44,427 nucleotides of DNA from Haliea sp. GTDB taxonomy: Bacteria; Pseudomonadota; Gammaproteobacteria; Pseudomonadales; Halieaceae. Of the stretch, positions 3,542-36,992 are shown one piece after another. Both the position numbers and the translations under genes were made by a program. The stretch is from NCBI GenBank assembly GCA_002862985.1, contig PKCY01000142.1, forward strand, positions 1 to 44,427, written 5' to 3'. Numbering within the stretch: position 1 is the stretch's first letter; each line of letters opens with the position of its first letter. The notes under the pieces are model-generated. The model was not told the DNA's origin. It ran no database searches and worked only from the letters and a program-made list of their open reading frames with translations.

Positions 3542-3823
3542 ATGAATCTCAATCAGATCGTTAAGCCCTCGCCCCAAGTGATCTCCCAGGAGATCTCGGG
3601 CGAGACTGTTTTGCTCGATCTGGAGAGTGAGTGCTACTTCGGTCTGGACACGGTGGGCACACGTATCTGGCAGCTAATCGAGACTGGAAGCGACCTACTC
3701 TCCATTTTCAACACTTTACTTGAGGAATACGAGGTCGAAGAGTCGCGCCTGCGCGCTGACCTCGAAACGCTTATCAATGACGTCCGCGATCGCGGCCTGA
3801 TTTCACTGGAGGATGTCTTGTGA
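3542..3823 (+). CDS. PqqD-family peptide chaperone-like protein
   Basis: This 93-residue protein has the PqqD fold signature VLLDLESECYFGLD followed by GTRIWQLIE (about residues 22-45), then a helical C-terminal half. PqqD-like domains are known as RiPP recognition elements that bind leader peptides and present them to a modifying enzyme. The ATG at 3542 begins where the homology begins; an upstream in-frame start at 3449 would add 31 unrelated residues. The stop overlaps the GTG start of the molybdoenzyme gene by four bases (GTGA), so the two are translationally coupled. PqqD proteins of this size also occur as partners of HPr-kinase-like and nucleotidyltransferase proteins, and both of those are found 20-27 kb away in this window. 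Confidence 0.85.
   Translation: MNLNQIVKPSPQVISQEISGETVLLDLESECYFGLDTVGTRIWQLIETGSDLLSIFNTLLEEYEVEESRLRADLETLINDVRDRGLISLEDVL
3808..3813 (+). promoter_or_regulatory. Ribosome binding site for the molybdoenzyme GTG start
   Basis: GGAGGA lies six bases ahead of the GTG at 3820, inside the end of the PqqD-like gene. It supports the GTG start and coupled translation of the two genes. Confidence 0.7.
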
Positions 3824-5967: not shown

Positions 5968-6084
5968 TTTCTGTACACCCTCCAACCCACAAAATTATTA
6001 TTTGTAATTGCGATGTGCAATACTCACTATAAACGAGCATCTTAAAATGACAAATCACCTGTAAAAACTGCGAGGGAGCCTCCC

Positions 6085-6681
6085 ATGGACATATCGACTA
6101 TTGTGTTCTGGCTGATATTGCTGGGCCTTGTCATCTACGTCGTCACAATCTATAACACCCTGGTAACGCTTAAGAATCGCTATCTCAATTCCTTCGCACA
6201 AATTGAGGTGCAGCTCAAACGACGCTACGACCTGATTCCAAATTTAGTAGAGACCGCCAAGGCGTATATGGGGCATGAGCGCGAGACACTGGAGGCTGTC
6301 ATTAATGCACGCAATGACGCCGCTGCGATTCTGAAGGCCATGAGTGACGGTAATGTCGGTGGTGCCCAGCTAAGTCAATTAGCCAATGCCGAAGGCACAT
6401 TACAAGGAGCCTTGGGAAAATTGAATGTCACCATGGAAGCGTATCCTGACCTCAAAGCCAACGAGAACATGATGCAACTTTCTGAAGAGTTAACGACCAC
6501 GGAAAACCGTGTTGCCTTTGCCCGCCAAGGCTTTAATGACGCTGTTATGACGTACAACACCTACCGCCAGAGTTTTCCCCAGGTTTTCTTCGCCACCAAA
6601 TTCGGCCACCCCGAAGATGCTTCACTCCTTCAGTTTGAGGACTCGGCAGAAATTCAGCGTGCGCCCGAGGTGTCTTTCTAG
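6085..6681 (+). CDS. lemA: LemA family membrane protein
   Basis: This 198-residue protein has one N-terminal membrane helix (about 5-26) and a long helical region typical of LemA. The conserved family segment is easy to see: RYDLIPNLVETAKAY, then ERETLEAVINARN. The family has no firmly established biochemical role. It often sits beside membrane-bound M48 proteases, as here, where an M48 gene follows after about 20 bases. AGGGAG precedes the ATG. A TATAAA at 6028-6033 could be a -10 element, but I see no convincing -35. Confidence 0.9.
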   Translation: MDISTIVFWLILLGLVIYVVTIYNTLVTLKNRYLNSFAQIEVQLKRRYDLIPNLVETAKAYMGHERETLEAVINARNDAAAILKAMSDGNVGGAQLSQLANAEGTLQGALGKLNVTMEAYPDLKANENMMQLSEELTTTENRVAFARQGFNDAVMTYNTYRQSFPQVFFATKFGHPEDASLLQFEDSAEIQRAPEVSF

Positions 6682-6701
6682 CGCACTGAGCTAAAGCCAC
6701 C

Positions 6702-8642
6702 ATGGATTTTTTTGCGCAACAGGATGCAGCTCGGCGCAATACGCGCGTGCTGGTTCTATTGTTTCTGGCGGCAGTGTTGCTGTTGATTGTGTTGGCCAAC
6801 GCCGCTGTCGCTGCGTTTCTGTTCTTTAGTGGGGACTACAACATCTACAGCGGCAGCCGCGAGGGGATGGACGGCTTTCTGTCTTACTTCAGCTGGTCGC
6901 GATGCGGGACCGTGAGCTTGGCCATAAGCGCGACCGTGGCCTTGGTGGTTCTGGCAAAATGGGTACAACTTTCAACTGGCGGCAAGGCGGTTGCTGAAAG
7001 CCTGGGTGGCACCCGCATCCTGCCACAATCCAGGGATGCGACGGAGCGGCGCTGCCTGAATGTCGTCGAAGAAATGGCACTGGCTGCAAATATGCCGGTG
7101 CCGCCCGTCTACGTACTGAACGGCGAACGGGGCATCAATGCGTTCGCCGCTGGCATCACTCCCGCCGACGCCATTGTGGCAGTCACCCGAGGCACCATCG
7201 AACACCTCAAACGACATGAACTGCAGGGCGTCATTGCCCATGAGTTCAGTCATATTCTCAACGGCGATATGCGTCTGAATATACGCCTGGTGGCAATGCT
7301 CAAAGGAATCACATTTATTGGAGACGTGGGACACATACTACTGCGCAGCAGCAACCGCGTTCGATCCGGGGCCAGTGCGCGCAGCAAGGTCGGCCCCACC
7401 ATATCCCTGCTGGGGTTTGCCCTGTGGCTTTTGGGATGGCTGGGCGGTTTGGCGGCAGGGTTCATCAAGGCAGCCATTTCTCGGCAAAAAGAATTCCTGG
7501 CAGATGCCAGTGCAGTGCAATATACGCGCAGTCCAGACGGCATTGGCGACGCTCTAAAAGTCATTGGCGGCTATATTCCAGGCACACTGGTGCACGCCGC
7601 TCGGGCAAACGAAATGTCCCATATATTTTTCGGGCAAATTGAACACCGCTTATGGCAGGTTTTCGCCACTCACCCCCCGCTGCGCGATCGCATCGGGCGT
7701 GTGGACCCGCAATGGAATGGCGAATTTATCGAACGCAAACCGATGCACTATCCCGAACAGCCAAGCCGTCCGGGCGCAGGGGACGTGGGCGTCGGACGCG
7801 CGGCTCTGGTGGCAGCTGCCCTGGCCGGCGCGCTCGCGGAAGACGTTGGGGCTGAAGATGCACATTTTGAATCCGACCCCGATCAACTGGAGCAGGCGAC
7901 CGCCACGCGTGAGGATATTCCGCTGGTCTTTGTCCAGCAAAGTCACGAGCCGTTGGGTGCACATGCGCTAATCTATTGCCTGCTAATTAGTAATGATGAG
8001 ACGCTACGGCAACAACAACTGCAGATCATCTCCACAACAGACATTATTGGCCTGCAGGAGCTCGTCCACACTTTTAGCCCAGGCGTACAGGCACTGGGAG
8101 CACCGCGCCGCCTTCCACTGCTCGAGATGTGCCTGCCTGCTCTAAAGTCCATGTCGTTACCCCAGTATCGATTATTCAAGAACACGCTATTGAAGCTGAT
8201 TCAAGCAGATCAACGGACTGAACTCTACGAATGGTGTCTATTTCAGCTTGTGCGCCACTATTTGGACCCGGAATTCATTACGGTTAAACCCAGCCGAGCA
8301 CGGTATCGCAAGTTACAAACGGTGGCTGCGCACATCCGCATGGTATTTTCAGTGCTGGCCTGGGAAAGCAGCGGCGAATCACACGCCGTATTTCGCCTAG
8401 GTGCAGACAGTCTGGGTTTCACAGACATGGAAATTCTGCGAGCAGAACAATGTGAGGTCGCTAGTTTCAGCAATGCGGTACACGAATTGGCGGACTGCTA
8501 CCCCCTCCTGAAGCCACGCTTGCTCAAGGCTATGACCTTGGCTGCCGGACACGATGGACAGCTCACTCCATTGGAGCGAGAGATAATCGGCAGCATGGCC
8601 GCCGTCATGGATTGTCCCATTCCCTCGGGCCCCGATCTTTAG
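6702..8642 (+). CDS. M48 family membrane metalloprotease with C-terminal extension
   Basis: This is an HtpX-like zinc protease of the inner membrane. Of its 646 residues, the first 90 hold two membrane helices (about 14-40 and 68-88). The zinc motif HEFSH is at 180-184, and the downstream glutamate is probably E264 in KEFLADASA. A third hydrophobic stretch lies at about 231-255. M48 proteases such as HtpX are usually near 290 residues. Here about 300 further residues follow the protease domain. The last part (about 600-640: LAAGHDGQLTPLEREII) resembles a TerB-like helical domain. The gene follows lemA closely, which suggests a functional pair in membrane protein quality control. The role of the extension is unknown. 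Confidence 0.88.
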   Translation: MDFFAQQDAARRNTRVLVLLFLAAVLLLIVLANAAVAAFLFFSGDYNIYSGSREGMDGFLSYFSWSRCGTVSLAISATVALVVLAKWVQLSTGGKAVAESLGGTRILPQSRDATERRCLNVVEEMALAANMPVPPVYVLNGERGINAFAAGITPADAIVAVTRGTIEHLKRHELQGVIAHEFSHILNGDMRLNIRLVAMLKGITFIGDVGHILLRSSNRVRSGASARSKVGPTISLLGFALWLLGWLGGLAAGFIKAAISRQKEFLADASAVQYTRSPDGIGDALKVIGGYIPGTLVHAARANEMSHIFFGQIEHRLWQVFATHPPLRDRIGRVDPQWNGEFIERKPMHYPEQPSRPGAGDVGVGRAALVAAALAGALAEDVGAEDAHFESDPDQLEQATATREDIPLVFVQQSHEPLGAHALIYCLLISNDETLRQQQLQIISTTDIIGLQELVHTFSPGVQALGAPRRLPLLEMCLPALKSMSLPQYRLFKNTLLKLIQADQRTELYEWCLFQLVRHYLDPEFITVKPSRARYRKLQTVAAHIRMVFSVLAWESSGESHAVFRLGADSLGFTDMEILRAEQCEVASFSNAVHELADCYPLLKPRLLKAMTLAAGHDGQLTPLEREIIGSMAAVMDCPIPSGPDL

Positions 8643-22813: not shown

Positions 22814-23914
22814 TCAGATTATGTCCAACCGTGCCAAATAGCCGCGTAGTTTCATCGGACTATGCATCAGTGAGTGGGTGAGGTGTTGGATCCGGGCATA
22901 AATATCGAGGGTATTGCTCACCGCAACTGAATTCATACGCATTTCCATAAGTCGCATGCGCTGCGCTACCGACAAGCCACCCCTGGCGGAGAGCGCCTCT
23001 GACGAATATTGCCCCATTAATTCTGTCACTAACTGTGCGAAAAGCGCTTCGGCATTGCCACAATACTGCGTAATCAGGCCAAAATCCAGGCGCCGGTCCG
23101 CCGCTTCCTGTATGTGCAAGTAATCGCAAGCCTCGCGTACGGGAAAACTCTGCCGCGCCATATACCCATCGTGAACAAACTTCCCTAGGACTAAATGAAT
23201 GATCTGAAACTCAGGAGATGGAATACGAAAACGCGCCCCATTTATCTCATGTGTCAATGCGCTGGCCAGGAAGGGCTCCAGCAATTTTTTTTGCTGCCAA
23301 CACGCAGGGAGAAAATAACGATGCAACTCAACGATCGCGGGGCAGCCGTCTTTCATCAGTTCGGGCAGATGATGATGACTCCGGCTTTTTTCCACTGCCG
23401 TCTGAACGTCCCGAAGCTGAACTGGCACTTTTTCATTGCCAGTAAAATCATAGAAGCTATAGCCGTCGTCAATAAGTCGCTCAGCGGCCAGTTCCAGTTG
23501 TCCGGGGGCTACCAGAAAATCGATATCCACCTGCTTTCGAAAGCCAAGATTGTTGCGGTTCGTGACCAGGAGCTGGGCAGTCCCCTTCAGAAAAACGGGA
23601 TCAATCCCAGCTTTATTCAGAACTTTGGCGAGTTTTAGAGCCTGCGCGCTGATTTTCATGTTGCGCATTGTGTTTTGGCGCAAAGCCCGTGTCATTTCTT
23701 CTTCGACTGAATTCTCAAGCGATAGATCGTCTCCGATTAGCTCCGCAACGCGCAACGCAAGCGCCGGCAATACATCGTGGTAACTGGCGGTCTCCACCAA
23801 ATGCCGTAAACCACTAGTAGTCAACTCTTGCAGGAGCACTGCATCGCCAACAGGGCCTAACGCCCTGCAAAGCAATCGAAACTGTGACCAATTTGTTGAC
23901 GGTCTGCTATTCAC
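22814..23914 (-). CDS. Family-5-type nucleotidyltransferase of unknown substrate
   Basis: This is an uncharacterised nucleotidyltransferase (NTP_transf_5-like) of about 366 residues. The fold signature is VFLKGTA followed by QVDIDFLV, whose spaced aspartates are the likely metal ligands. Further family segments are AIVELHRYFLP and FQIIHLVLGKFVHDGY. Such proteins recur beside HPr-kinase-like and PqqD-like proteins, and in some kinase-containing lasso peptide clusters; their reaction is not established. The GTG at 23914 has GGGA six bases before it. A TTG at 23935 would add seven residues but has no visible ribosome site. It is the last gene of the minus-strand operon that begins with the HPr-kinase-like gene. 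Confidence 0.82.
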   Translation of the reverse strand: MNSRPSTNWSQFRLLCRALGPVGDAVLLQELTTSGLRHLVETASYHDVLPALALRVAELIGDDLSLENSVEEEMTRALRQNTMRNMKISAQALKLAKVLNKAGIDPVFLKGTAQLLVTNRNNLGFRKQVDIDFLVAPGQLELAAERLIDDGYSFYDFTGNEKVPVQLRDVQTAVEKSRSHHHLPELMKDGCPAIVELHRYFLPACWQQKKLLEPFLASALTHEINGARFRIPSPEFQIIHLVLGKFVHDGYMARQSFPVREACDYLHIQEAADRRLDFGLITQYCGNAEALFAQLVTELMGQYSSEALSARGGLSVAQRMRLMEMRMNSVAVSNTLDIYARIQHLTHSLMHSPMKLRGYLARLDII

Positions 23915-24055
23915 ACATATCCCGCTACGCAGCAATGTCGGGGATTGATGATACCTTCATCCCAGCAGAAAGATCATTTGATTTGATGCCGACATTGCGC
24001 AGAGTGAAACAGACGGGCAATCCAAGGCTTAAGTCCGCCTGTCGTTACCGAATGC

Positions 24056-26518: not shown

Positions 26519-28741
26519 TCAACTCTGCCCATAACCATAGTCGTTACCGTAATAGCCGGGCTTGCCATAAGCGTCCTGCTTTCTACTATCCATTCTATTC
26601 AACACCACGCCCGTGAATGGAAGATTACTGTGTTTAATCAGATTGATACTTTTCTGAACCAGCTTTCGAGGCGTGACATCAGCTAATACGACATAAACCA
26701 GTGAGTCTGCCAGTGTTGCCAGTATGAGCGAATCGCTAACGGCGTTTACGGGGGCCGAGTCGATGATTACTCGATCGTACTTCTCTCCCAGTAATTTCAA
26801 CAATTTCCTAAACTGCAGAGTTGAGAGCATTTCCTGCGGGTTTGGCGGCAGCAAACCCGCAGGCAACACATCAAAACCCACCTCCACATTTTGCACGCAG
26901 TCTTCAATCTTATGGGTTTCTGCAAGCAAATTACTCAAACCCGGCGTGCCACTTTGTAGAGAAAATGCCGTCGCCACCGAAGGCCGTCTTAAATCGGCGT
27001 CAATCAGCAGTACGGTCTCCATTTTCGCCAAGGCCGCGGCCAGGTTGATCGCCACGGAGCTTTTACCCTCGCTCGGATTGGTGGAGGTAACCACAGTAAT
27101 CTTGTGTGGTTTTTCCAAACCTGACAGCACCAGGCCTGTGCGTATATTGCGTATTGCCTCTGCAAAGCCGGATTTATTGTCCTCGATATAACCAAGGCAA
27201 GGACCGGTCCAGTCTTTTCTTAGTCCAATATTGGGCAGCACACCCAGCATGGGTGCGTCGAGGTACTCCATCACATCATCAGGTGATTTCAAGGTACTGT
27301 CCAAAAGATCTTTTAAAATGGCCAGCCCCATACCCAACAGAGCGCTGAGCAGGAAAGCAATCATCACTATGCGCTTTTTATCTGGTTTAATCGGCGCGAT
27401 GGGTGGCGAAGCCCTTTCGACCACCCTGGCATGGGCTGACTGAAACCCAATCGTTTCGGATGTCTCCCTGGCCCGGTTAAAGAACATTTCATATAAACGA
27501 CGATCAGTGTCAACCTGCTGCTCCAGCTCTCGCAGCCGAAATTCCTTGCGATTCAGACTGGCGACATCCTGCTTTACGACCGCCAGTTGTTGCGCCAGAT
27601 TCTGTTCATTGAGAAGCGCCACCCGGTACTCCTTCTCAATACCAGACGCCACCTGCAGCACCTGTTGTTTTAACTCAGCTTGCACGCTTTCCTGACGCGA
27701 TTTGGCAGCAATCATCTTGGGGTGTTCCGGCCCGTAGCGCCCGGCTAGGTTTGTAACCTCCTGTTGCGCATCAGTATGAGCTTGCGCCAGATTTTGCACC
27801 AGGGGGTGTTGCAATACCGCTGGCATACTCATCATCTGTGATATTGAGTAATTGGCCGAGCCACCCAGTTCCCGGTAAATGCTTTCTGCTCCCACCCGTG
27901 TCCGACGCGTCTCGCCTAATCTAGTCGTGAGCTCATTCAACTCCTGTGCACCCAGTGTCTGCACGCCAGCGACATCGAGTATTTCTTCCTTGTCCCGAAA
28001 ATTCTGCAGCGCCTGTTGTGATTGTTCCAGGTTGGTCTTCAGGTCCACCAGCCGACTGGTCAACCAGTCGCCGGCCTCGCGAGTGGATTGCAGTTTAGCG
28101 TCCAACTGACTTTGAATGTAAACCCGGGCGAGCGTATTCACTACCTGAGCAGCCAACTTACGGTCTGTGGACTCAAAACTCACTACAACCAGCTGCGTAA
28201 ACTCCACCGGCTCGACCGAAAGTCGGCTCATAAACTTGTTTATTATCGCCGCTTTCTCTTCTTCTTCGATATTGACGGGAGGCATCAACTTGCCGGATGT
28301 CGTAGTGAAAAGTTCAGCCAACGAACCGTTAATAGTCGAGCGCATTCCATCGTCATCTGCATCAGGTTTTCGAGAAGAAAACTGGGGGTGGTTCCACAAG
28401 TCGAGCTCGTCGGCAACCAGTTCAGCTATATCGCGATTGCGGATAATTTGAAACTGCGTGAGAAAATATTCCCTGATTCTCGAAGGCAAGCCATACACCT
28501 CTTCAATGGAAACAGTTTTCGCCTCCTGAGATTCAATCATAATCGTGGTGCTGGCACGATAAACAGGATCGATCCTCATTACCCACAAGACCGTGAGCAT
28601 GCTCACCACAGCACACAGACCCAGGATGCCCCGCCAGCTTTGCCGAATAACACGCCACAGATGTCCAAGGTCTATCACCGTGTCGTCGGGCGGATAAAGT
28701 CCGGGGAGAGGGCTTTGTGCTTGCATGTTATGGCCTGACAT
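26519..28741 (-). CDS. Wzc-like polysaccharide co-polymerase / tyrosine autokinase
   Basis: This is an inner-membrane chain-length regulator fused to a BY-kinase. Numbering from 28756, a Wzz domain with its first helix lies at about 42-60. A long coiled periplasmic region spans about 70-455 and the second helix about 463-481. The kinase has Walker A at 559-568 (NPSEGKSSVA), Walker A' at 583-592 (LLIDADLRRP) and Walker B (VIIDSAPV) at 664-671. The C-terminal tail has five tyrosines in about 13 residues (730-742), the usual autophosphorylation cluster. The ATG at 28741 is the preferred start; a TTG at 28756 is possible, and neither has a strong ribosome site. The opposing phosphatase candidate is at 39.2-40.0 kb. 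Confidence 0.93.
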   Translation of the reverse strand: MSGHNMQAQSPLPGLYPPDDTVIDLGHLWRVIRQSWRGILGLCAVVSMLTVLWVMRIDPVYRASTTIMIESQEAKTVSIEEVYGLPSRIREYFLTQFQIIRNRDIAELVADELDLWNHPQFSSRKPDADDDGMRSTINGSLAELFTTTSGKLMPPVNIEEEEKAAIINKFMSRLSVEPVEFTQLVVVSFESTDRKLAAQVVNTLARVYIQSQLDAKLQSTREAGDWLTSRLVDLKTNLEQSQQALQNFRDKEEILDVAGVQTLGAQELNELTTRLGETRRTRVGAESIYRELGGSANYSISQMMSMPAVLQHPLVQNLAQAHTDAQQEVTNLAGRYGPEHPKMIAAKSRQESVQAELKQQVLQVASGIEKEYRVALLNEQNLAQQLAVVKQDVASLNRKEFRLRELEQQVDTDRRLYEMFFNRARETSETIGFQSAHARVVERASPPIAPIKPDKKRIVMIAFLLSALLGMGLAILKDLLDSTLKSPDDVMEYLDAPMLGVLPNIGLRKDWTGPCLGYIEDNKSGFAEAIRNIRTGLVLSGLEKPHKITVVTSTNPSEGKSSVAINLAAALAKMETVLLIDADLRRPSVATAFSLQSGTPGLSNLLAETHKIEDCVQNVEVGFDVLPAGLLPPNPQEMLSTLQFRKLLKLLGEKYDRVIIDSAPVNAVSDSLILATLADSLVYVVLADVTPRKLVQKSINLIKHSNLPFTGVVLNRMDSRKQDAYGKPGYYGNDYGYGQS

Positions 28742-28759
28742 CTCTTGTGGCACCAAGAT

Positions 28760-29320
28760 CTAGAAGAAACTCTGCTCTATCTGAATGACATCACCAGGGC
28801 GAACGCGTGAACTCAGTGTTGCGCTTTTTCGATCCTCTTCACTACTGCGGGCATCGTCATCAGACATAATGTAAAACTTGCTCTTGGATGCCCTGGAAGT
28901 AAAACCCCCAGCCATGGACACCGCTTTTTCCACGGTCAGCCCCGGTTTGAAGGGGAACCCTCCCGGATTTGATACCTCGCCTCGGACAAAAAAGGGTCGA
29001 TATTCCATAATCGCGACATTCACGCGAGGATTGATGAGGAAACGACCACGCAGCTTGTCTGTAATTCTGGCTTCCAATTGCCGCGGCGTCAGGCCCCGTA
29101 CTTTCAGCTCTCCCAGTAACGGATATGAGATTGCACCGGTATCATCCAGCCACGCACTAAGGCTCAGGTCCGGCTCTTCAAACACCGTTACCTGCACGCG
29201 GTCACCTGTATTGAGAGTATAGGAGGCAATATCTGCAGGTTCACTAGCGAAGGCAGGCAAGGCTAACACTAAGAGAAATATTAACTGCAGCAGCTGGCGA
29301 GAGCGGTCTATGAAAATCAA
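28760..29320 (-). CDS. Wza-like polysaccharide export protein, short form
   Basis: This 186-residue protein has a signal peptide (residues about 1-25, ending PAFA) followed by a Poly_export domain (TLNTGDRVQVTVFEEPDL) and one SLBB-like domain (FFVRGEVSNPGGFPFKPG). E. coli Wza is about twice as long, with extra domains and an outer-membrane helix. This short form cannot span the outer membrane alone, so a partner such as the barrel at 32.5 kb may complete the channel. No lipobox cysteine is visible. The start is a TTG at 29320; no ATG precedes the signal peptide. It lies 18 bases before the Wzc-like gene. Confidence 0.88.
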   Translation of the reverse strand: MIFIDRSRQLLQLIFLLVLALPAFASEPADIASYTLNTGDRVQVTVFEEPDLSLSAWLDDTGAISYPLLGELKVRGLTPRQLEARITDKLRGRFLINPRVNVAIMEYRPFFVRGEVSNPGGFPFKPGLTVEKAVSMAGGFTSRASKSKFYIMSDDDARSSEEDRKSATLSSRVRPGDVIQIEQSFF

Positions 29321-29447: not shown

Positions 29448-30470
29448 TTAACCACCCGAATTATTCAGCAATGCTCGCAGTACGAAAGGGAGTTCGGCGT
29501 GGTCTCGCGGGTAGTAAAGATGATTCACTTTGAGCCCTTGCCCTTCGTTGAGTAGTTGCGCTGCCTGCGAGAAAATGCGCGCCATAGAGTCCGGGTCTGA
29601 AGGGTCCAGGCTGAATGCACTTCCCATAATCGACATCATAGCCGCTGTTCCAGAAGCGAGCTCGATGTGCACCGTCTCGCCCCGCGACGCCAGCTCCGAA
29701 GGCGATGCGAGCAGAAACACGCTATCGAGCACTCTGGGATCCGGTCCAGAGGTATCTCCCACCGGCAGACACATCTGCAGTTTCTCTGTTGAGTCCGCGT
29801 AGTGCGTGAAATCCTGGGGATTGTATCCAAGCGCATCCAGTGAATCAGAATATAAACGGATGGTGGGTACGCCCCCGGTAATTTTGAGCTGGCTGTTTTC
29901 AACGCGAAAAAGTATGCAATCATCGTCGATAATTTGCGCACCCTGTGAATAACAATAAGAAGCCAGGGTTGACTTACCCATGCCTGATTTCCCCACAAAA
30001 GCCACAGTACTGCCATTAGGGAAACTGACCGCGCTGGCATGCAGTAATAGCGACCCTGTATGTGCAAGGTAGCGAGGAATGACTTGATTGAGCAGTAAGT
30101 GACGTAACAACCCAGGATTCATTCCTCGCTCCGGGAAACAGCAAATCTCACCCCCAACGCTAATCAGGAACCTCGCCTGCCCAGGAAGCGATAGTAAGTA
30201 CTGGTCTCCCCGGCGTGCGCTCCTGCAGATAAGCCGACCATCGTCAGCGCACCAATCATGGCGACTTACAAATCCAGCAAGGTCAAACGACCTGGACGCT
30301 GCCTGCCGCACACGAATACTCGGATTACCATACGGCCAATACGGTACCTCTGGCAGCGGTATAGTGCTACTGAGGCAGGTATTGAATAAACGATAAGATA
30401 TAACCTGGCCCCCATTTATTGTGTCGCTTGTGCCTCCCGGGGTTATATCTTTCTGTTGGTCATCCTTCAT
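29448..30470 (-). CDS. HPr-kinase-like P-loop kinase
   Basis: This protein of about 340 residues resembles the C-terminal catalytic domain of HPr kinase/phosphorylase. The P-loop GKSGMGKST lies at about 160-168, preceded by LLLHASAV and followed by the acidic IIDDDC at about 180-185. The N-terminal 120 residues are not the HprK N-domain. No HPr or PTS gene is in the window, so HPr is an unlikely substrate. Related kinases phosphorylate the C-terminal serine of some lasso peptides, and others recur with PqqD-like and nucleotidyltransferase genes. It is the first gene of the minus-strand export operon and divergent from a gene for a small exported peptide. The ATG at 30470 is preferred to the TTG one codon earlier. 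Confidence 0.85.
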   Translation of the reverse strand: MKDDQQKDITPGGTSDTINGGQVISYRLFNTCLSSTIPLPEVPYWPYGNPSIRVRQAASRSFDLAGFVSRHDWCADDGRLICRSARRGDQYLLSLPGQARFLISVGGEICCFPERGMNPGLLRHLLLNQVIPRYLAHTGSLLLHASAVSFPNGSTVAFVGKSGMGKSTLASYCYSQGAQIIDDDCILFRVENSQLKITGGVPTIRLYSDSLDALGYNPQDFTHYADSTEKLQMCLPVGDTSGPDPRVLDSVFLLASPSELASRGETVHIELASGTAAMMSIMGSAFSLDPSDPDSMARIFSQAAQLLNEGQGLKVNHLYYPRDHAELPFVLRALLNNSGG

Positions 30471-30663
30471 CAATAAATTTCGTCACTTCTGGGTTATAAT
30501 GCCGAATTGGGACCGCCAGCAAACGGCTCCAATCGTTGCTTGACTGCTCGCCTATAGACCCTGCAGTTTCTAATAGTATGTCCGCTGTTGCCAGTGCTGT
30601 TACCCTATTTTACAGCCGCCACCGGCAAAGGCCCGGCAGCCACAGGACAGAAAAGGTATTACC
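30471..30663. promoter_or_regulatory. Divergent promoter region between kinase and peptide operons
   Basis: These 193 bases separate two divergent operons and must hold both promoters unless they lie in coding DNA. A perfect TATAAT is at 30495-30500 on the plus strand (GGGTTATAAT), with no good -35 at 17 bases. A TTGACT at 30540-30545 has no well-spaced -10. The ribosome site AAAAGG at 30651-30656 serves the peptide gene. Confidence 0.4.
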
Positions 30664-30873
30664 ATGGATGTTGAACGCGATTCGACAGAAGATAGGGCAA
30701 GATCCACTCTGAGCCGGCGCAACCTCGTAAAAAAATCGGGCAAAGCGCTTTACATCGCCCCCACGCTCATAATGCTGGGCTCCCTGCCGGCGTCAGCACA
30801 GTTTGGCAGCCCTCCCCCACCGCCAGGGTCGACCGGCTCATCAGCCCCGGCAGCCCCGGCCCCGACAGAATAG
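30664..30873 (+). CDS. Small exported peptide with twin-arginine-like signal
   Basis: This is a 69-residue protein of no family I can name. Residues 1-16 are charged; then comes SRRNLVK (17-23), a close match to the twin-arginine motif. A hydrophobic stretch YIAPTLIMLGSLP (30-42) and a cleavage site after A45 (ASA before Q46) follow. The predicted mature part, Q46-E69, is 24 residues: five prolines in a row, then Gly, Ser, Thr and Ala-Pro repeats. It has no cysteine, tyrosine or lysine. AAAAGG lies seven bases before the ATG. It is divergent from the HPr-kinase-like gene and eight bases ahead of a secreted-protein gene. It may be a kinase substrate, a structural peptide or a cofactor-less Tat passenger; the first is a guess from position. 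Confidence 0.75.
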   Translation: MDVERDSTEDRARSTLSRRNLVKKSGKALYIAPTLIMLGSLPASAQFGSPPPPPGSTGSSAPAAPAPTE

Positions 30874-30880
30874 TATATTG

Positions 30881-31645
30881 ATGCTGATCCCTGACCATAC
30901 ATTCAAACCCGCCCCATTCCTAGGCTCGCAGTTGGCAGTCCTCCTGACTTTGATTTTCAGTTTAGCCATAGCGCCGCAGGCTGTTGCTCAGTGCGGTCCG
31001 AACATCACGCTCACGGCAAACCAATGGAGTATGGTGGGAGTCCCCTGCCAACCCGGCCCCAGTAATACTATCGGAGACATTTTCGGCCCCAGTCTTAACG
31101 CACCTGATTATGCAGTCACCTGGATAGTGTGGAAGCGCATATATGACGCACCGGCGCAGTGCAGCGTGGCATCAGGGCCTGCTGATTGCTATATAAAGCT
31201 TACGCTGACGGATACGGTCAACACCGGCGACGCATTTTGGATCTTTACCACCGTGTCGGCGACCCTGAATTTGAGCGCGGTCGGGGCGAGTGACACACCC
31301 GGGCCCCAGTTCCAGTTTCCGGCGACTCTGTCGACTGACGGAAGCAGCCGGTATTACCTGTTCGCCAATCCCTATAAGGCTGCGGTTACCGGGCCAAATC
31401 TAGTGTTCCCGACCTCTATCTTCGGCTTTTTCCCTTTTGCAGCGAGCGCTCAACAGGCAGTTAATTTTTCGATCATTAGCCAGAATGTCCACTATTGGAA
31501 CGGCAATACCTACTTTACTCAGGACATCACCACCAACGCTGCAACATTCGTCCCCAAGCAGGCTGCCTGGCTTGAGATGCTGCGACCTAACCCTAACTTT
31601 ATACCGTTTTCGGATGTGCGGGTTCCAGACCCCGGGGCACCCTAA
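30881..31645 (+). CDS. Secreted protein of unknown function
   Basis: From the ATG at 30881 this protein has 254 residues. A signal peptide spans about 1-40 (hydrophobic LAVLLTLIFSLAIAPQ, cleavage after AVA). The mature protein starts QCGPNITLTANQWSMVGVPC, which resembles the domain with an LTxGWNMVSLP pattern found in varied secreted bacterial proteins. At least four cysteines occur in the mature N-terminal half, which could form disulfides. The protein ends DVRVPDPGAP. An upstream in-frame start at 30803 would overlap the peptide gene and lacks signal-peptide sense. It is the second gene of the peptide operon. No catalytic motif is seen. Confidence 0.75.
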   Translation: MLIPDHTFKPAPFLGSQLAVLLTLIFSLAIAPQAVAQCGPNITLTANQWSMVGVPCQPGPSNTIGDIFGPSLNAPDYAVTWIVWKRIYDAPAQCSVASGPADCYIKLTLTDTVNTGDAFWIFTTVSATLNLSAVGASDTPGPQFQFPATLSTDGSSRYYLFANPYKAAVTGPNLVFPTSIFGFFPFAASAQQAVNFSIISQNVHYWNGNTYFTQDITTNAATFVPKQAAWLEMLRPNPNFIPFSDVRVPDPGAP

Positions 31646-31675
31646 ATTGATCGCGAGAAACAGCGGAAAGTCGTC

Positions 31676-32464
31676 ATGAACTTGAATAGCGCACTTACAG
31701 TAATGGTTGCGATAGTGACGCTTGGCGTCAATCCATTGTCCGCCAGAGATCTGGAGAGAGGTGAATGGTCGGTGCGGCTGCTTCTCAGCTCCAGTGATGG
31801 CAAACTCGAAGATACCTACAACCGGCTCGGTCAGTTACACGATGCCTCAGACGGATTCGACCGCTACGATCTACCGGAACTGGATCAGAGCTGGGCCGGC
31901 ACTTATCTCAGCGTTATTTTTTACCGTCCGCAGTGGGAGACTGACAGGGAATCCTTTAACACAGATTTTCATCCCAAAGTCCGCAGAGCTAGGGACGAGT
32001 GGTACTTTGAAGTGCGCAGCGATGACCCGTACCGAGAGCTTAGTCTTACATGGGTTGGCAAGAGAACAAGGATGAAAAGGATGGTGCTGGTCGACCTGGA
32101 AGAAAGCGAAGTCTTGCCCGCAGTGATCGATGGTGTACCGCAGGTTTATAACTTCATCATGAATGGGCCGGTTAGAGAATTTGTTTGGCGAGTCCTGACC
32201 AGAAGAGAGTATGCCGAATTTTTAGCCTCCGGCGAGCTTGGCACACCTTCAGCTGTTTCCACCTCTGCGGCAAGCCCAGGGGTGACTGCTTCCACCCAAA
32301 AAACCCGCTTCAGATCAGTGGCAACCGATGACCGCACTACTGATGAGAAGGTCAAGCGAGCCAAAAGTGGATGGCTGCCTCGCGGCTGGGGCCGGGGAGA
32401 AGGCAAGGGGTACCGTCATTCTGCTATCCCCAACGGACTCCCCGACGACCCCTTCGCCGACTAA
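31676..32464 (+). CDS. Secreted protein of unknown function
   Basis: This 262-residue protein has a signal peptide (about 1-23, ending LSA) and a mature region beginning RDLERGEWSVRLLLSSSDG. The segment NRLGQLHDASDGFDRYDLPE then WAGTYLSVIFYRPQW resembles a beta-rich module (D..N.LG..ASDG.D.YD.PE) seen in large secreted proteins, often together with the LTxGWN-type module encoded by the previous gene. The last 70 residues are Ser/Thr then Arg/Gly rich and probably disordered. It follows the 254-residue gene by 30 bases. The function is unknown; a surface or matrix-associated role is inferred only from the signal and locus. Confidence 0.72.
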   Translation: MNLNSALTVMVAIVTLGVNPLSARDLERGEWSVRLLLSSSDGKLEDTYNRLGQLHDASDGFDRYDLPELDQSWAGTYLSVIFYRPQWETDRESFNTDFHPKVRRARDEWYFEVRSDDPYRELSLTWVGKRTRMKRMVLVDLEESEVLPAVIDGVPQVYNFIMNGPVREFVWRVLTRREYAEFLASGELGTPSAVSTSAASPGVTASTQKTRFRSVATDDRTTDEKVKRAKSGWLPRGWGRGEGKGYRHSAIPNGLPDDPFAD

Positions 32465-32543: not shown

Positions 32544-33800
32544 TTACAGACTCAAATCAACGCCAATAACAAACACGTTATCGGTATAACTAAGATCTTC
32601 AATATTTGAATTCTTGTCATCGTAACTATAGCTTGCGTAGAAATTAGCCCAGCGTCGAAACTCGTAACCCGCCCGGACCGTTGCGCTGTAAATATCATCT
32701 TTCCTATCATTGATGGCCTGCTCGTAGGTATCGTGACCATAAAGACCCGCTAGCTCGGTATAGATGCGATCAGTCCAGTCATGCGTCCAGGTTGCTGCGA
32801 ATACTTCTCGCTTGACGAAGTTCCCATCCAGCGTGGTTTCCTCGGGCTTACGACTGCTTTGCACCAATATGGTGTCATGTTCCCGAGGTTGCATCCATAG
32901 CTCCAGACTCCATCCGAGGCCATCCCAATCTTTGCGTTGGGAATTTTTGAACTCCTTATCCATGTACCCGGCCTTGGCCGTGCTGGATAGGCTCGGCGTG
33001 ACCTCCCAGGTAGCTCCTGCCAGTAGAAAATTTTCAACGCTGTCCAGCGACGGAGCGTCTTCGAAGGCATTAGGGTAGTGAATATCCTTGTAGGTATACT
33101 CAATCAAAAAGTCTGTCTTGGGTGCGACCGGATAGAAAAAAGTGCCGCCGACTGAGGTTTCATCGCGGTCACGAGTGCGGGTGAGGTCCCTGAAGTTACG
33201 GTACTCCAAATCCATATAGCCGGCGCTGAGGAGCAGTTGCCCCACTCCATCTATTGAGCCAAACTGCAGGGAACCTCCTATATCGGCCTGATCGTACCTC
33301 ACTGGTTTAGGAATGGCTTGGCCCAAAAGCCCTTCCGATAGACCGGTACCGCGCTCTTCGTGGAGAGACGCCCAACTCAAATAACCCTCTGCGATCCACC
33401 GGTCTGTTATTTCCAGATGGGCATCGCCGGAAAAGGTCTGGTCAAAGTAATCGTTTTTGTCATCGTTACTGTTGACTTGATACCAACCGGCTTCGGCCTG
33501 GTAGTCCAGTTGATAAATGTTTTCACGGTCCTGAAGCAGCGCATTGACCGCTGGACGCACGATGTACATCCAACTGTCAGTCGCGTCACGCTCCTGAAGA
33601 TAGATATTGTCGCGATGCTCAATCTTCACACCAACGGTGGGCGTAATCGCTACCGGCCCTAACTCTGCCGCCGCGGGGCCCAGTGGATTGGTCGCCGCCA
33701 CCACTTGAGTGGGGTGACAAAGTAAACACAGAAGCGCTGAACTTACGGAGAGTGCCCTAGCCAAGCCCGGGACACTCCGGTCGCGCTTGAATCTTATCAT
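32544..33800 (-). CDS. Outer-membrane beta-barrel protein (BBP2-like)
   Basis: From the ATG at 33800 the protein has 418 residues, with a signal peptide (about 1-33) ending in VVAA. The rest alternates short amphipathic strands rich in aromatic residues and ends in VIGVDLSL, an aromatic/hydrophobic C-terminal strand. The start ITPTVGVKIEHRDNIYLQE is typical of the beta-barrel porin-2-like proteins found in exopolysaccharide export loci. It could be the outer-membrane pore that the short Wza-like protein lacks. The longer frame to 33989 has a cysteine-rich non-signal N-terminus and is not favoured. It converges on the 262-residue protein gene. Confidence 0.8.
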   Translation of the reverse strand: MIRFKRDRSVPGLARALSVSSALLCLLCHPTQVVAATNPLGPAAAELGPVAITPTVGVKIEHRDNIYLQERDATDSWMYIVRPAVNALLQDRENIYQLDYQAEAGWYQVNSNDDKNDYFDQTFSGDAHLEITDRWIAEGYLSWASLHEERGTGLSEGLLGQAIPKPVRYDQADIGGSLQFGSIDGVGQLLLSAGYMDLEYRNFRDLTRTRDRDETSVGGTFFYPVAPKTDFLIEYTYKDIHYPNAFEDAPSLDSVENFLLAGATWEVTPSLSSTAKAGYMDKEFKNSQRKDWDGLGWSLELWMQPREHDTILVQSSRKPEETTLDGNFVKREVFAATWTHDWTDRIYTELAGLYGHDTYEQAINDRKDDIYSATVRAGYEFRRWANFYASYSYDDKNSNIEDLSYTDNVFVIGVDLSL

Positions 33801-34104
33801 TGTCACTTCATGTTTCTCTATGGCCACTCTGCAGGCGCATTTAGCACAGGTATCCGACATCCCTAGACAGCCATAGCCGCCGAGCGGCAATGGCACCAAG
33901 CCCCAGTAGCGGCCTAGCAGTTCTGGCTTCCCTAGCCCTGACGCGGGATATTCTAGCCTAATCTCGCAAAGATGATAGATTAGAGTCAACGGGATATAAT
34001 TCGAGACAGTGACTGGCCCCTGGGAATATCTCTGTCCACGAGTGATGAGCGCGTCGTCACGGCTTGTGTCATGATTGTTGTCAATGTGAGGTCACCGACG
34101 GGCG
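33801..34104. other. Divergent intergenic region
   Basis: About 304 bases lie between the outer-membrane barrel gene and the O-antigen ligase-like gene. A plus-strand TATAAT at 33995-34000 (GGGATATAAT) could be the -10 of the ligase/FecR operon, but no good -35 is visible. I see no other structure. Confidence 0.4.
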
Positions 34105-35442
34105 ATGCCCCAGTCTACTGTTAAGCCGTATCACTGGGCAAATTCCGCCTTATTTTACTATTTCCTCGTTGTACTCATCTGGGCGCCACTGCCGCTGGGC
34201 AGCAATCGCGACTGGTCTACGGCCCTCTTGGCGGCGCTGTTGTTGGCGGGCCTGGTCTGGGGTGGCGCTTTGTTAGCGCTGCACCATCTGCGCGTTACCC
34301 CGGCACTGCGCAAGGCATGGCCAGCGCTGGCATCACTGGTCGCAGTGCAAATCTGGGTAGGACTGCAACTGGTTTTTGATCTCAGTGCTGCGCCGGCATC
34401 TACCCGCCTTGCTTTGCTGTTGGGCATGGCGCTAGTAGCGGCGTTCATTTTGGTGCTTCTATTAGTCGACTCGCGTAAACGAATACTGGCAATCTGCGGC
34501 GTTATGATTGCCTGCGGAGTGTTCCAGGCATTCTTTGCCAGCGCCATGGTGATGGGAGATGTCGAAGAGATTGCGTTCCTGGACAAAAACTTTGGTCGAT
34601 CCTCCGCCAGCGGAACGTTTGTCAATCGCAATCACCTTGCCGGTTTTCTGGAAATGAATCTCGCTATCGGCATCGGGATGTTGGTGGCGCAGTTGTATCG
34701 ACATCCCGCCAGCAGTTGGCGCGAATTCATACGCAGAAGTGTCAAGACCGTCCTAAGCCCCAAATTCAGACTTCGTCTGTACCTCGTAATTATGGTGATC
34801 GCCCTGGTACTCACTCGATCCCGGATGGGCAATACTGCATTTTTCTCGAGTCTGCTCCTGTGCGGGGTGGCTTCCATGCTGCTGCAACAACGGGTAACCC
34901 GCAGCGCGGTGATATTCTTTATCAGCCTGTTGCTGATTGACATCGCGATTGTAGGCAACTGGTTTGGGGTGGATGAGGTCGTCCAGCGTCTGCAAAATAC
35001 CTCTCTCTCGATAGAAAAGCGCGATGAGGTGGCGATTGACAGTATCGTTATGTGGCGGGACCACTTTTGGTTTGGCACCGGGGCCGACTCCTTTTTTCAG
35101 TCTTATGTTTACGGTGGCTATATGAGCCCGGACTCTCTCTATTACCGGCATGCTCACAATGATTACCTAGAAATTGGTAGCGGATTCGGCTTCATCGGTT
35201 TTTCGCTACTCGCAACCGCGGTTCTGACCAGCCTGTGGCAGGCTTTAATAGCCCAGCGTCGGCGACGGTCCCACCTGCATCAGGGTCTCGGTTTTGCCAG
35301 TGCCATGGGCATCATCAGCCTCCTGATTCACAGTTTCTCTGATTTCAATTTGCACGTTCCCGTCAACAGCCTATGGTTTGTAGTTCTGCTCGCGTTTGCG
35401 TGGGTTGCCAGATCAGAAAATCGGGCACAGAAAGCGGACTGA
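34105..35442 (+). CDS. O-antigen ligase / polymerase family membrane protein
   Basis: This 445-residue membrane protein has about ten to twelve helices and a large periplasmic loop. The family signature is in the loop and following helix: TFVNRNHLAGFLEM (about 172-185) and HAHNDYLEIGSGFGFIG (about 350-366). This is the Wzy_C/WaaL superfamily, whose members either polymerise repeat units or transfer glycans to an acceptor, and some glycosylate proteins. With an EpsG-like protein also present, one may polymerise and the other ligate. It is followed after 81 bases by two FecR-domain genes. Confidence 0.88.
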   Translation: MPQSTVKPYHWANSALFYYFLVVLIWAPLPLGSNRDWSTALLAALLLAGLVWGGALLALHHLRVTPALRKAWPALASLVAVQIWVGLQLVFDLSAAPASTRLALLLGMALVAAFILVLLLVDSRKRILAICGVMIACGVFQAFFASAMVMGDVEEIAFLDKNFGRSSASGTFVNRNHLAGFLEMNLAIGIGMLVAQLYRHPASSWREFIRRSVKTVLSPKFRLRLYLVIMVIALVLTRSRMGNTAFFSSLLLCGVASMLLQQRVTRSAVIFFISLLLIDIAIVGNWFGVDEVVQRLQNTSLSIEKRDEVAIDSIVMWRDHFWFGTGADSFFQSYVYGGYMSPDSLYYRHAHNDYLEIGSGFGFIGFSLLATAVLTSLWQALIAQRRRRSHLHQGLGFASAMGIISLLIHSFSDFNLHVPVNSLWFVVLLAFAWVARSENRAQKAD

Positions 35443-35523: not shown

Positions 35524-35970
35524 ATGCAATCTGTCGTTTTTGCACGGTGTCTTCTGCCGTTGCTCATCATTATCAGCCTAGACGCCTGGTCAACAGCGGG
35601 CCGCATTCTTGGTTTTGAAGGCGACGCACGCGTGAATGGTGAGCCGGCGACAGCTGAGACACTATTGCATCGCGACGGTACCGTTTCCACCGCGTCCGGT
35701 GCGACAATCAAAATCATCCTATCTGACAACAGCGTGCTAGACCTCGACGAGGATTCGGAAATCCTGATCAGTGACTACATTTTTGACCCCTCAGATCCGC
35801 AGGCCAATACCAGTAAAGTCGACATCCTTGCGGGCACCCTCCGCTACGTCAGTGGGCGAATCGCAAAAGACGACCCGCAAAAAATCAGCTTTACCGCCGA
35901 TAGTTCCACTATCGACGCGCGCGGCCGTTTCATCAATATATCAGTCTGCACACCAGACGGGTGCGAATAG
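35524..35970 (+). CDS. Short FecR-domain exported protein (copy 1)
   Basis: This 148-residue protein has a signal peptide (about 1-26) and a FecR domain (FEGDARVNGEPATAETLL, IKIILSDNSVLDLDEDSE, LAGTLRYVSGRIAKDDPQK). It ends abruptly just after DARGRFINISVC, where the FecR domain normally continues through the IGVRGT strand. The following gene is a close paralogue that has that remainder, so this copy looks truncated or newly diverged. No sigma factor or TonB receptor is nearby, so this is not a classic Fec-type anti-sigma protein; stand-alone periplasmic FecR proteins exist. Confidence 0.8.
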   Translation: MQSVVFARCLLPLLIIISLDAWSTAGRILGFEGDARVNGEPATAETLLHRDGTVSTASGATIKIILSDNSVLDLDEDSEILISDYIFDPSDPQANTSKVDILAGTLRYVSGRIAKDDPQKISFTADSSTIDARGRFINISVCTPDGCE

Positions 35971-36992
35971 TGCATCGTCTCGCTAAATCTTACTGCCTGC
36001 TATACCTGCTGTTCGCTAGCGCATCAAACGCGTGGGCCGCAGAGGGCAGCATCCTCAGTTTTGAAGGGGATGTGCAGGTTAATGGGCAGCCTGCGACCGC
36101 CGATACCCCGGTAAATCGAGAAGATGCCATCGTCACTGCCGGGGGCGCGTCGGTTAAAATCGTGCTCTCGGACAACAGCGTGCTTGACCTCGACAGTGAT
36201 TCGGAAATTCAGCTCAGTGACTACAGCTACAGCCCATCCGAACCGCAGCAAAACAACAGTGAGATCAAAGTAGTACAAGGCACACTGCGCTATATCAGCG
36301 GCCTGATCGTTAAAGAAGACCCGAGTAAACTCAGCTTTAGCGCCGGTAACTCCGCCATTGGCGTGAGAGGCGGTTTCACCGAAATTAACGTTGACGGCGG
36401 CACTGTCAACGTCAAGGCAATGATCGGCGAAACCACCATGACCCATGATGTCGAGGGTGAAGAAGATACGGTTATCGTTCCCGCTGGGTACGCCACACAA
36501 AAAGACCCAACTACTGGAGAGATACTGCTGACAACGTCGGCCGCCGTTAATAAGGTCGATGCGGCTGTTCGCGCCATAGTCGCCTCGGCACCTGATCCTA
36601 GCACAGCAAAACCCACTGACGAGGGATGCAGCGAAAGTGGCCGCCCGCTGCGCACTGCCGCTCGCCCTGCATATGATGCCGAATCTGCCACTGCAATTGA
36701 GAACCAGCTGGCCGCCCTTAGCCAGGGCGAGCTAATGATGTTGACGGCGGTGTTAGTCAACAATGCGGGGCAACTGTGTATAGACAAATCAACCGTGGCT
36801 GCCGCCATAAGGATGATTGCGAGTGTCAATCCTGATGTAACGTCCGACGTGATTTTTGTGGCAATACTGCTGGACCCGGATAACGCCGGGACACTTGACG
36901 AAGAATTCGGCCCGCTGGGCGCGCCCCTGAGTGTCCCGCAACCTGAAACTGAAATTCCTACCGGTGGCGGTAATCCCGCCAGCCCTGAATAA
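35961..36992 (+). CDS. FecR-domain exported protein (copy 2)
   Basis: This protein has 343 residues from the GTG at 35961, or 340 from the GTG at 35970, which overlaps the upstream stop by one base and gives a normal signal peptide start. The FecR domain (about 28-175) is a paralogue of the preceding gene, with SDNSVLDLDSDSE and LVKEDPSK-type segments, plus the canonical IGVRGGF and a VPAGYATQKD segment that copy 1 lacks. The C-terminal 150 residues are a helical region without motif, ending in a Pro/Gly-rich tail. The nucleotide sequences of the two copies are visibly alike, so the duplication is fairly recent. A role in surface glycan or matrix sensing is a guess. Confidence 0.8.
   Translation: MRIVHRLAKSYCLLYLLFASASNAWAAEGSILSFEGDVQVNGQPATADTPVNREDAIVTAGGASVKIVLSDNSVLDLDSDSEIQLSDYSYSPSEPQQNNSEIKVVQGTLRYISGLIVKEDPSKLSFSAGNSAIGVRGGFTEINVDGGTVNVKAMIGETTMTHDVEGEEDTVIVPAGYATQKDPTTGEILLTTSAAVNKVDAAVRAIVASAPDPSTAKPTDEGCSESGRPLRTAARPAYDAESATAIENQLAALSQGELMMLTAVLVNNAGQLCIDKSTVAAAIRMIASVNPDVTSDVIFVAILLDPDNAGTLDEEFGPLGAPLSVPQPETEIPTGGGNPASPE

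Follow-up and report, generated by a model that had tools for sequence, protein, structure and literature searches.

Here we describe a candidate peptide-phosphorylation locus in a Haliea sp. genome (GCA_002862985.1; 329 contigs, about 90% complete), carried on contig PKCY01000142.1, which is called the window below (the whole stretch analysed, 44,427 nucleotides). A P-loop kinase, assigned to the lasso type of HprK-like kinases from family profiles, alignment and a tree, occupies positions 29448-30470 on the minus strand when read from its first ATG (open reading frame 29448-30473). Across 193 intergenic bases (30471-30663, from the reading-frame calls) it is divergent from a plus-strand gene for a 69-residue twin-arginine (RR) peptide (30664-30873). 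No sigma-70-like promoter was listed in this interval. Scans for promoters and terminators gave no more than chance would. Two genes for putative secreted proteins follow the peptide in the same direction, sec1 at 30881-31645 (+), 7 bases past the peptide stop codon, and sec2 at 31676-32464 (+), 30 bases past sec1; both have a Sec-like signal by eye, and no family was found for either. The reading frames thus lie as the first-pass annotation of this DNA had described them. The whole group sits within a locus for exopolysaccharide (EPS) synthesis.

The peptide has an N-region, a twin-arginine motif (SRRNLVKK, with R18 and R19), a stretch reading Y30-I-A-P33-T-L35-I-M-L-G39 and an A-S-A cut site after residue 45, read from the sequence, that would release a tail of 24 residues. 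The R-R pair and the cut-site Ala are invariant in all 17 rows of the family alignment (A3). The tail begins with QFGSPPPPP (positions 1-9 past Ala45) and ends in Thr-Glu, and its translation agrees with the earlier statement that it holds no Tyr, Cys or Lys. Ser49 (codon 30808-30810, +), 19 residues past Tyr30, is the predicted phosphorylation site. The peptide is a real gene, because five relatives from the same genus encode it beside the kinase. Over the part that aligns (32-46 residues around the signal), the peptide is 59-83% identical in each of these five comparisons, against 47-54% for the kinase, 41-57% for sec1 and 41-55% for sec2; the peptide values come from local alignment, which is biased toward the best-kept part, and they are similar to those of the glycosyltransferases of the locus. 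Such conservation is high for a signal peptide and may point to a specific binder.

The likeness of the kinase to the HPr kinase catalytic domain, claimed in the first-pass annotation, is present but weak, with E 0.0021 against Pfam Hpr_kinase_C and 4.6e-9 against NCBIfam HprK_rel_B, both under the curated cut-offs. The score against HprK_rel_A (TIGR04352) is 22.1 bits for a cut-off of 200. An identity as HPr kinase was rejected since the scores fall below all cut-offs. No gene for HPr or the phosphotransferase system (PTS) was seen among the reading frames of the window; the genome itself was not searched for one. When the kinase profile was run against the PDB, 132 sequences matched, and the 60 listed are ATP-binding cassette (ABC) transporters matched at the P-loop. 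A wider scan of contigs with the kinase returned one full-length relative in a gammaproteobacterial metagenome-assembled genome (MAG; L027) and two 36-residue matches in Bacteriovorax-type MAGs.

The catalytic residues are more informative about its affinities. The eight residues given for BsfK and the lasso kinases in the available part of PMC10368454 (H148, G163, G166, G168, K169, S170, D186 and D187) correspond in the window kinase to H145, G161, G164, G166, K167, S168, D184 and D185, with the same spacing as in BsfK from the P-loop on, and all are invariant in seven aligned kinases. In a tree of 27 kinases, midpoint-rooted and accompanied by a program warning about long branches, the six kinases from EPS loci form one clade (100/99). 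It groups with five kinases from lasso clusters (98/98) and stands apart from those belonging to other RR-peptide cassettes (100/99).

The five nearest kinase relatives outside the genus, in genomes G022, G190, G291, G251 and G271, all sit in lasso peptide clusters. Asparagine-synthetase-like proteins were recognised in 5/5 of these clusters and ABC exporters in 4/5, both by eye; the LemA, M48, AsnB-like, ABC exporter, radical S-adenosylmethionine (SAM), Wzy and molybdopterin oxidoreductase genes of this study were all named in that way, without a family call. A precursor with the pattern Y-x-x-P-x-[LF]-x-x-x-G-x5-T lies near the kinase in every one of the five. Gly at Tyr+9, a feature of lasso leaders, is present in 6/6 peptides of the genus and 7/7 lasso precursors but in 0/22 other RR peptides, the 7/7 being partly a result of choice since the precursors were picked by eye from Y-x-x-P matches. 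At this position, the RR peptide found beside a lasso-type kinase resembles lasso leaders, and the other RR peptides do not.

A lasso peptide proper was nevertheless rejected for the window, because no leader peptidase turned up and the tail offers no acid for the ring. The lasso leader peptidase B2 (PF13471) was found in 0/18 genomes of the genus, including the window's at about 90% completeness, and in all three sister genomes with lasso clusters. Closure of the lasso ring uses an Asp or Glu at core positions 7-9, and the window tail has neither at these positions. No asparagine-synthetase-like cyclase C was recognised by eye among the window reading frames (the genome was not searched), and no lasso D-type ABC exporter was seen among them.

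Two genes absent from the first-pass annotation belong to the same picture. One encodes a stand-alone PqqD-family protein (3545-3823, +; family match E 6.9e-17), a candidate for precursor recognition, whose closest NCBIfam model is that of lasso B1, lasso_PqqD_Bac (NF033536, E 5.6e-15, below cut-off). A role in pyrroloquinoline quinone (PQQ) biosynthesis was rejected for this gene, the PQQ model giving E 0.0012 against 5.6e-15 for the lasso model. The other encodes a nucleotidyltransferase of the NTP_transf_5 family (22814-23935, -; PF14907, E 1.7e-28), to which the nucleotidyltransferases of phosphorylated lasso clusters presumably also belong. All six genomes with the locus have the kinase, the peptide, a stand-alone PqqD protein (61-67% identical to that of the window) and an NTP_transf_5 protein. 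The PqqD gene lies 22-26 kb from the kinase wherever contigs permit (4/4), and on another contig in G002 and G008. PqqD is also found in four of the other 12 genomes of the genus, each time near another HprK-like kinase, and is therefore not by itself specific to the EPS locus. According to PMC10368454, BsfK is far more effective with BsfB1, and a nucleotidyltransferase is encoded in the bsf cluster too; for pseudomycoidin, PMC8498205 describes a nucleotidyltransferase through which the phosphorylated peptide gains one or two hexoses.

In the sister genera represented by G190, G291 and G271, the lasso-cluster kinase has a related Wzy gene (33-44% identical) at a distance of 5-10 kb, and in G022 one in the same range of identity lies 1-2 kb from the lasso B1 and B2 genes. 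The simplest history would be that the EPS locus formerly held a lasso system, of which the kinase, the PqqD protein and the nucleotidyltransferase have been left over.

Next to the PqqD gene of the window, a molybdopterin oxidoreductase-like gene (715 aa, 3820-5967) starts in overlap with the PqqD stop codon and separates it from LemA-like and M48-like genes; in four relatives (L114, L115, L116 and L118) the LemA-like gene comes directly after PqqD. The row of PqqD, LemA-like and M48-like genes (window 3545-8642) recurs in relatives from the genus and near PqqD in G190 and G291.

Distribution within the genus was followed in 57 genomes, of which 18 belong to the genus, including that of the window. 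Full-length matches to the kinase (48-54% identical) and peptide matches at E 1e-9 or better fall in one and the same set of six genomes of the genus, where the two genes are always adjacent and divergent. The Wzy marker, at 72% identity or more, is present in exactly these 6/18. The kinase-peptide pair is a fixed part of the EPS locus. G013, also of the genus, has only a weak peptide match with a stop inside, and the weak peptide matches in G013, G030 and G032 (E 0.001-0.008) were left out of the counts.

In the window the EPS locus extends over roughly 9-40 kb and includes glycosyltransferases, Wzx/Wzy-like, Wzc and Wza proteins, a beta-barrel protein and FecR proteins, several of them named by eye. 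The export genes wza (28760-29320, -) and wzc (26519-28756, -) lie 3' of the kinase on the same strand. On the other side, sec2 is followed by the gene for an outer-membrane beta-barrel protein (BBP2_2; 32544-33812, -), a conserved neighbour, and by that of the Wzy-like protein (34105-35442, +) used as a marker for the locus. FecR-like genes form a tandem pair at 35524-36992 with a ten-base overlap, and relatives have one or two copies. In G001, sec2 is followed by a second sec1-like gene (L021:10614-12831). The first-pass annotation had suggested that sec1 and sec2 may bind the peptide or anchor it. Outside the genus, a search for sec1 in plasmids gave no match, and neither did a sequence search for sec2 in the PDB; these were the only outside sources searched for the two proteins.

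Beyond the genus, the window peptide belongs to a family defined by RR, Y-x-[AT]-P or similar, A-x-A and then G-S, followed by unrelated tails. Its only other match in the order was in G190 (341 genomes, E 1e-4). In the class, one profile search (369 genomes, E 0.01) found the family in 16 genomes and a second profile (316 genomes, E 1e-4) in 11, both including the window's. A phylum-wide search gave weak matches in 6 of 397 other genomes (E 9e-5 to 9e-4); in the order of G725 the peptide was found only in G725 itself among 23 genomes, and plasmid searches with two RR peptides and sec1 gave one match at E 1 and nothing else. Matches in G375, G476, G573, G598 and G669 (E 0.004-0.01) are not in the counts, and L097, L101, L103, L104 and L105, which were weak and judged non-members, were excluded (0/5 with kinase). 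In 26/28 peptides a Ser follows the Tyr (Phe in one peptide) by 19 or 20 residues; these comprise 6/6 in the genus, all at +19, and 20/22 others. The two misses, L107 and L165, have no GS motif and lie outside the 16 stretches discussed below; both carry a kinase and a nucleotidyltransferase. L161 repeats an L160 peptide and was kept as a stretch but taken out of the peptide count.

Among the 16 stretches around these peptides outside the genus, 7 contain an HprK-like kinase (L095, L096, L098, L106, L158, L162 and L164), 6 contain PqqD and 4 contain NTP_transf_5. None of the three turned up in any of 18 control stretches taken from these genomes (of 20 regions chosen, two did not exist, and three of those used were under 14 kb), which for the kinase gives a one-sided Fisher value of 0.002. 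The neighbourhood profiles behind these counts were partly built from L095, L096, L098 and L106 (kinase) and from L095, L096, L098 and L107 (PqqD or nucleotidyltransferase). In the later-fetched stretches L158-L164, which were not used in the profiles, the kinase is present in 3/7 against 0/18 (one-sided p about 0.015, by hand arithmetic), and the kinases of L095, L096, L098 and L106 match TIGR04352 independently (E 3.5e-13 to 4.3e-24, all below cut-off). Counted by genome, a kinase lies beside at least one GS peptide in seven of the 11 non-genus genomes followed (G389, G403, G468, G533, G550, G650 and G725), and G415, G651, G683 and G190 have a GS peptide with no kinase beside it. G725, G550, G403 and G468 have further peptides away from the cassette; these would be in keeping with a single set of enzymes acting on several peptides, or with peptides that do without a kinase. 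The recurrence across genera proposed as a check on the first-pass annotation is thus found in other families of the class, with HprK-like kinases adjacent and a Ser just past the cut.

Other cassettes of related content were noted. In G004 a second type (L190:2997-9709) combines NTP_transf_5, an HprK_rel_A-like kinase, an RR peptide with a Pro-rich SPTPTP tail and PqqD; its peptide (L190 6945-7235) has Trp for Tyr and a Ser at +19 by hand count, and the HprK-like kinase starts 22 bases 3' of it. An HprK-like protein, PqqD and a radical SAM-like protein lie in a row in L184:16975-19238, L186:8949-11413 and L057:768-3047, a different cassette resembling those of ribosomally synthesised and post-translationally modified peptides (RiPPs); in L057 a small YTAPRM peptide lies upstream. 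In the EPS locus of G190 an RR peptide ending in GSPPPTPG (L056:8384-12075) is in a row with an M10-like metalloprotease and a Sel1-SPOR protein, with no kinase nearby. A tail motif of about N-N-G-x-G-N-G-x-D-x-x-P-P-G recurs in L095, L100, L159, L160 and L163, from unrelated genomes.

Since a lasso-type kinase adjoins a recurring peptide family with a fixed Ser, the sequence evidence favours, without proving, phosphorylation of the peptide before its export. We regard kinase-dependent phosphorylation, most likely at Ser49, guided by PqqD and preceding twin-arginine translocation (Tat), as somewhat probable. An orphaned lasso-peptide kinase would have outlived its lasso system and would now act, together with a PqqD/B1-type protein, on a peptide that has a twin-arginine signal and forms part of an EPS locus. 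The PqqD protein would bind the Y-x-A-P-x-L-x-x-x-G stretch, and the kinase would phosphorylate Ser49 in the cytoplasm. Tat export and cleavage after Ala45 would then yield a short Pro-rich peptide phosphorylated at residue 4. The spacing from the Tyr is that of a known product, BsfA being phosphorylated on Ser3, 19 residues past its leader Tyr(-17) by our hand count (PMC10368454). Judging from its family and its place in the locus, the nucleotidyltransferase might, speculatively, add a sugar or nucleotide to the phosphate, much as hexoses are reportedly added in pseudomycoidin, and the product might have a role in the polysaccharide.

Several observations weigh against this proposal. The pair is inherited within the genus with the whole EPS locus, the Wzy marker being present in the same six genomes, and its co-occurrence there is therefore not independent evidence for function. 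Nine of the 16 peptide stretches outside the genus have no kinase, although its absence on the short contigs L100, L160, L161 and L163 (6-11 kb) says little; in G190 the RR peptide has no adjacent kinase, the nearest HprK-like one found lying about 45 kb off in the lasso cluster. HprK-like kinases occur with PqqD elsewhere in at least six genomes of the genus (beside PqqD genes in G002, G004, G006, G007, G009 and G013, by profile search), two of which also carry the EPS locus. The PqqD gene of the window is 26 kb from the kinase, and G291 has a 60%-identical PqqD though no RR peptide was found there. According to PMC10368454, BsfA is still phosphorylated when YxxPxL carries three Ala substitutions, so that the kinase may have no need of the leader motif. 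A C-terminal Ser, the target of other lasso kinases (PMC8498205, PMC9266682), is absent from the window peptide. This peptide also has no match at E 10 or better to the Tat-signal families of Pfam or NCBIfam; four other RR peptides match TIGR01409, below cut-off. Structure predictions for the kinase and sec1, from two-row alignments, reached a mean pLDDT (predicted local distance difference test) of only 35 and 30 and were not used. The earlier suggestion that the kinase may phosphorylate the peptide thus gains from the recurrence beside HprK-like kinases, the conserved Ser and the five lasso-cluster relatives, and loses from the kinase-free stretches and the shared inheritance within the genus.

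The kinase might instead act on another target of the EPS locus, such as a sugar, a lipid carrier or Wzc, the peptide being a separate exported component that shares the locus. The divergent orientation of the two genes, the position of wza and wzc after the kinase on its own strand, the inheritance with the whole locus in the genus and a weak kinase match to the small-molecule kinase FomB (E 0.0046) all agree with this. We consider it unlikely, as the Y-x-x-P precursor near the kinase in 5/5 nearest relatives outside the genus and the occurrence of the peptide family beside a second, separate kinase clade speak for a peptide substrate. It is rather improbable that the peptide is a true RiPP precursor, in which RR-Y-x-A-P would be a recognition leader and not a Tat signal, removed by a protease to leave the tail as a small secreted product. 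The full YxxPxLxxxG leader pattern, a cut site near the lasso position and the recurring block of PqqD with LemA-like and M48-like genes, whose M48-like peptidase could be the processing enzyme, are in keeping with such a precursor, but a RiPP leader would not need the invariant RR and cut-site Ala, and the exporter expected from lasso systems was not seen among the window reading frames. That the kinase is a relic, left with PqqD and without a substrate after loss of the lasso system, agrees with the lack of lasso peptidase in the genus and with the lasso genes near the related Wzy gene in sister genera, but is very unlikely given that six species have retained the kinase, the PqqD protein and the nucleotidyltransferase alike, with kinases 48-54% identical to that of the window and invariant active-site residues.

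The locus can be compared with several known systems. The phosphorylated lasso clusters (paeninodin PadeK, ThcoK, SyanK and BsfK-BsfB1-BsfN) share with the window locus the kinase clade, the catalytic residues, a PqqD/B1-type protein, a nucleotidyltransferase, the Y-x-x-P-x-L-x-x-x-G precursor stretch and, as in BsfA, a Ser 19 past the Tyr. The window locus differs in its twin-arginine signal, its EPS setting, a tail with no Asp or Glu at positions 7-9, a leader peptidase not found in the genus and a cyclase and exporter not seen in the window. The HPr-rel-A system of NCBIfam (HprK_rel_A, TIGR04352; PqqD_rel_X, TIGR04353) likewise pairs an HprK-like kinase with a PqqD protein, but the window kinase scores 22 bits for a cut-off of 200 and falls in the lasso clade, and the HPr-rel-A family titles consulted name no peptide substrate. 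HPr kinase/phosphorylase (HprK) has the P-loop and the Asp pair of the catalytic domain in common with the window kinase, which in contrast scores below all cut-offs and has no HPr or PTS gene in sight in the window. Small Tat substrates, such as the 'formate dehydrogenase region TAT target' (TIGR02811), have a short RR signal and a tiny mature part as well, but this model matched 3/10 RR peptides weakly and the window peptide not at all. We know of no serine rule for substrates of this type. In the literature searched, most subscription journals lying outside it, we found neither an EPS locus that joins a Tat-type peptide to a kinase of the lasso clade nor the serine rule. The parts are already known; what may be new is their combination and the serine rule of the peptide family.

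A broader reading, which we hold as quite doubtful, would make the RR-YxAP-GS peptides substrates of a widespread bacterial system. Its PqqD-type protein, HprK-like kinase and NTP_transf_5 enzyme would modify Tat-exported peptides on a fixed Ser just beyond the point of signal cleavage, first with a phosphate and afterwards with a sugar. At least once, kinases of the lasso type would have been recruited into this system, and in EPS loci the phosphoglycosylated peptide would be a carrier, primer or anchor of the polysaccharide.

To conclude, our results offer a concrete candidate substrate and site for the HprK-like kinases that accompany PqqD proteins in places other than lasso clusters, and would link phosphopeptide chemistry to polysaccharide export. 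If phosphorylation of the peptide holds true, phosphorylation ahead of Tat export would be a general peptide modification that follows a sequence rule, and a kinase that tailored lasso peptides would have found a new use once its own lasso peptide was lost.

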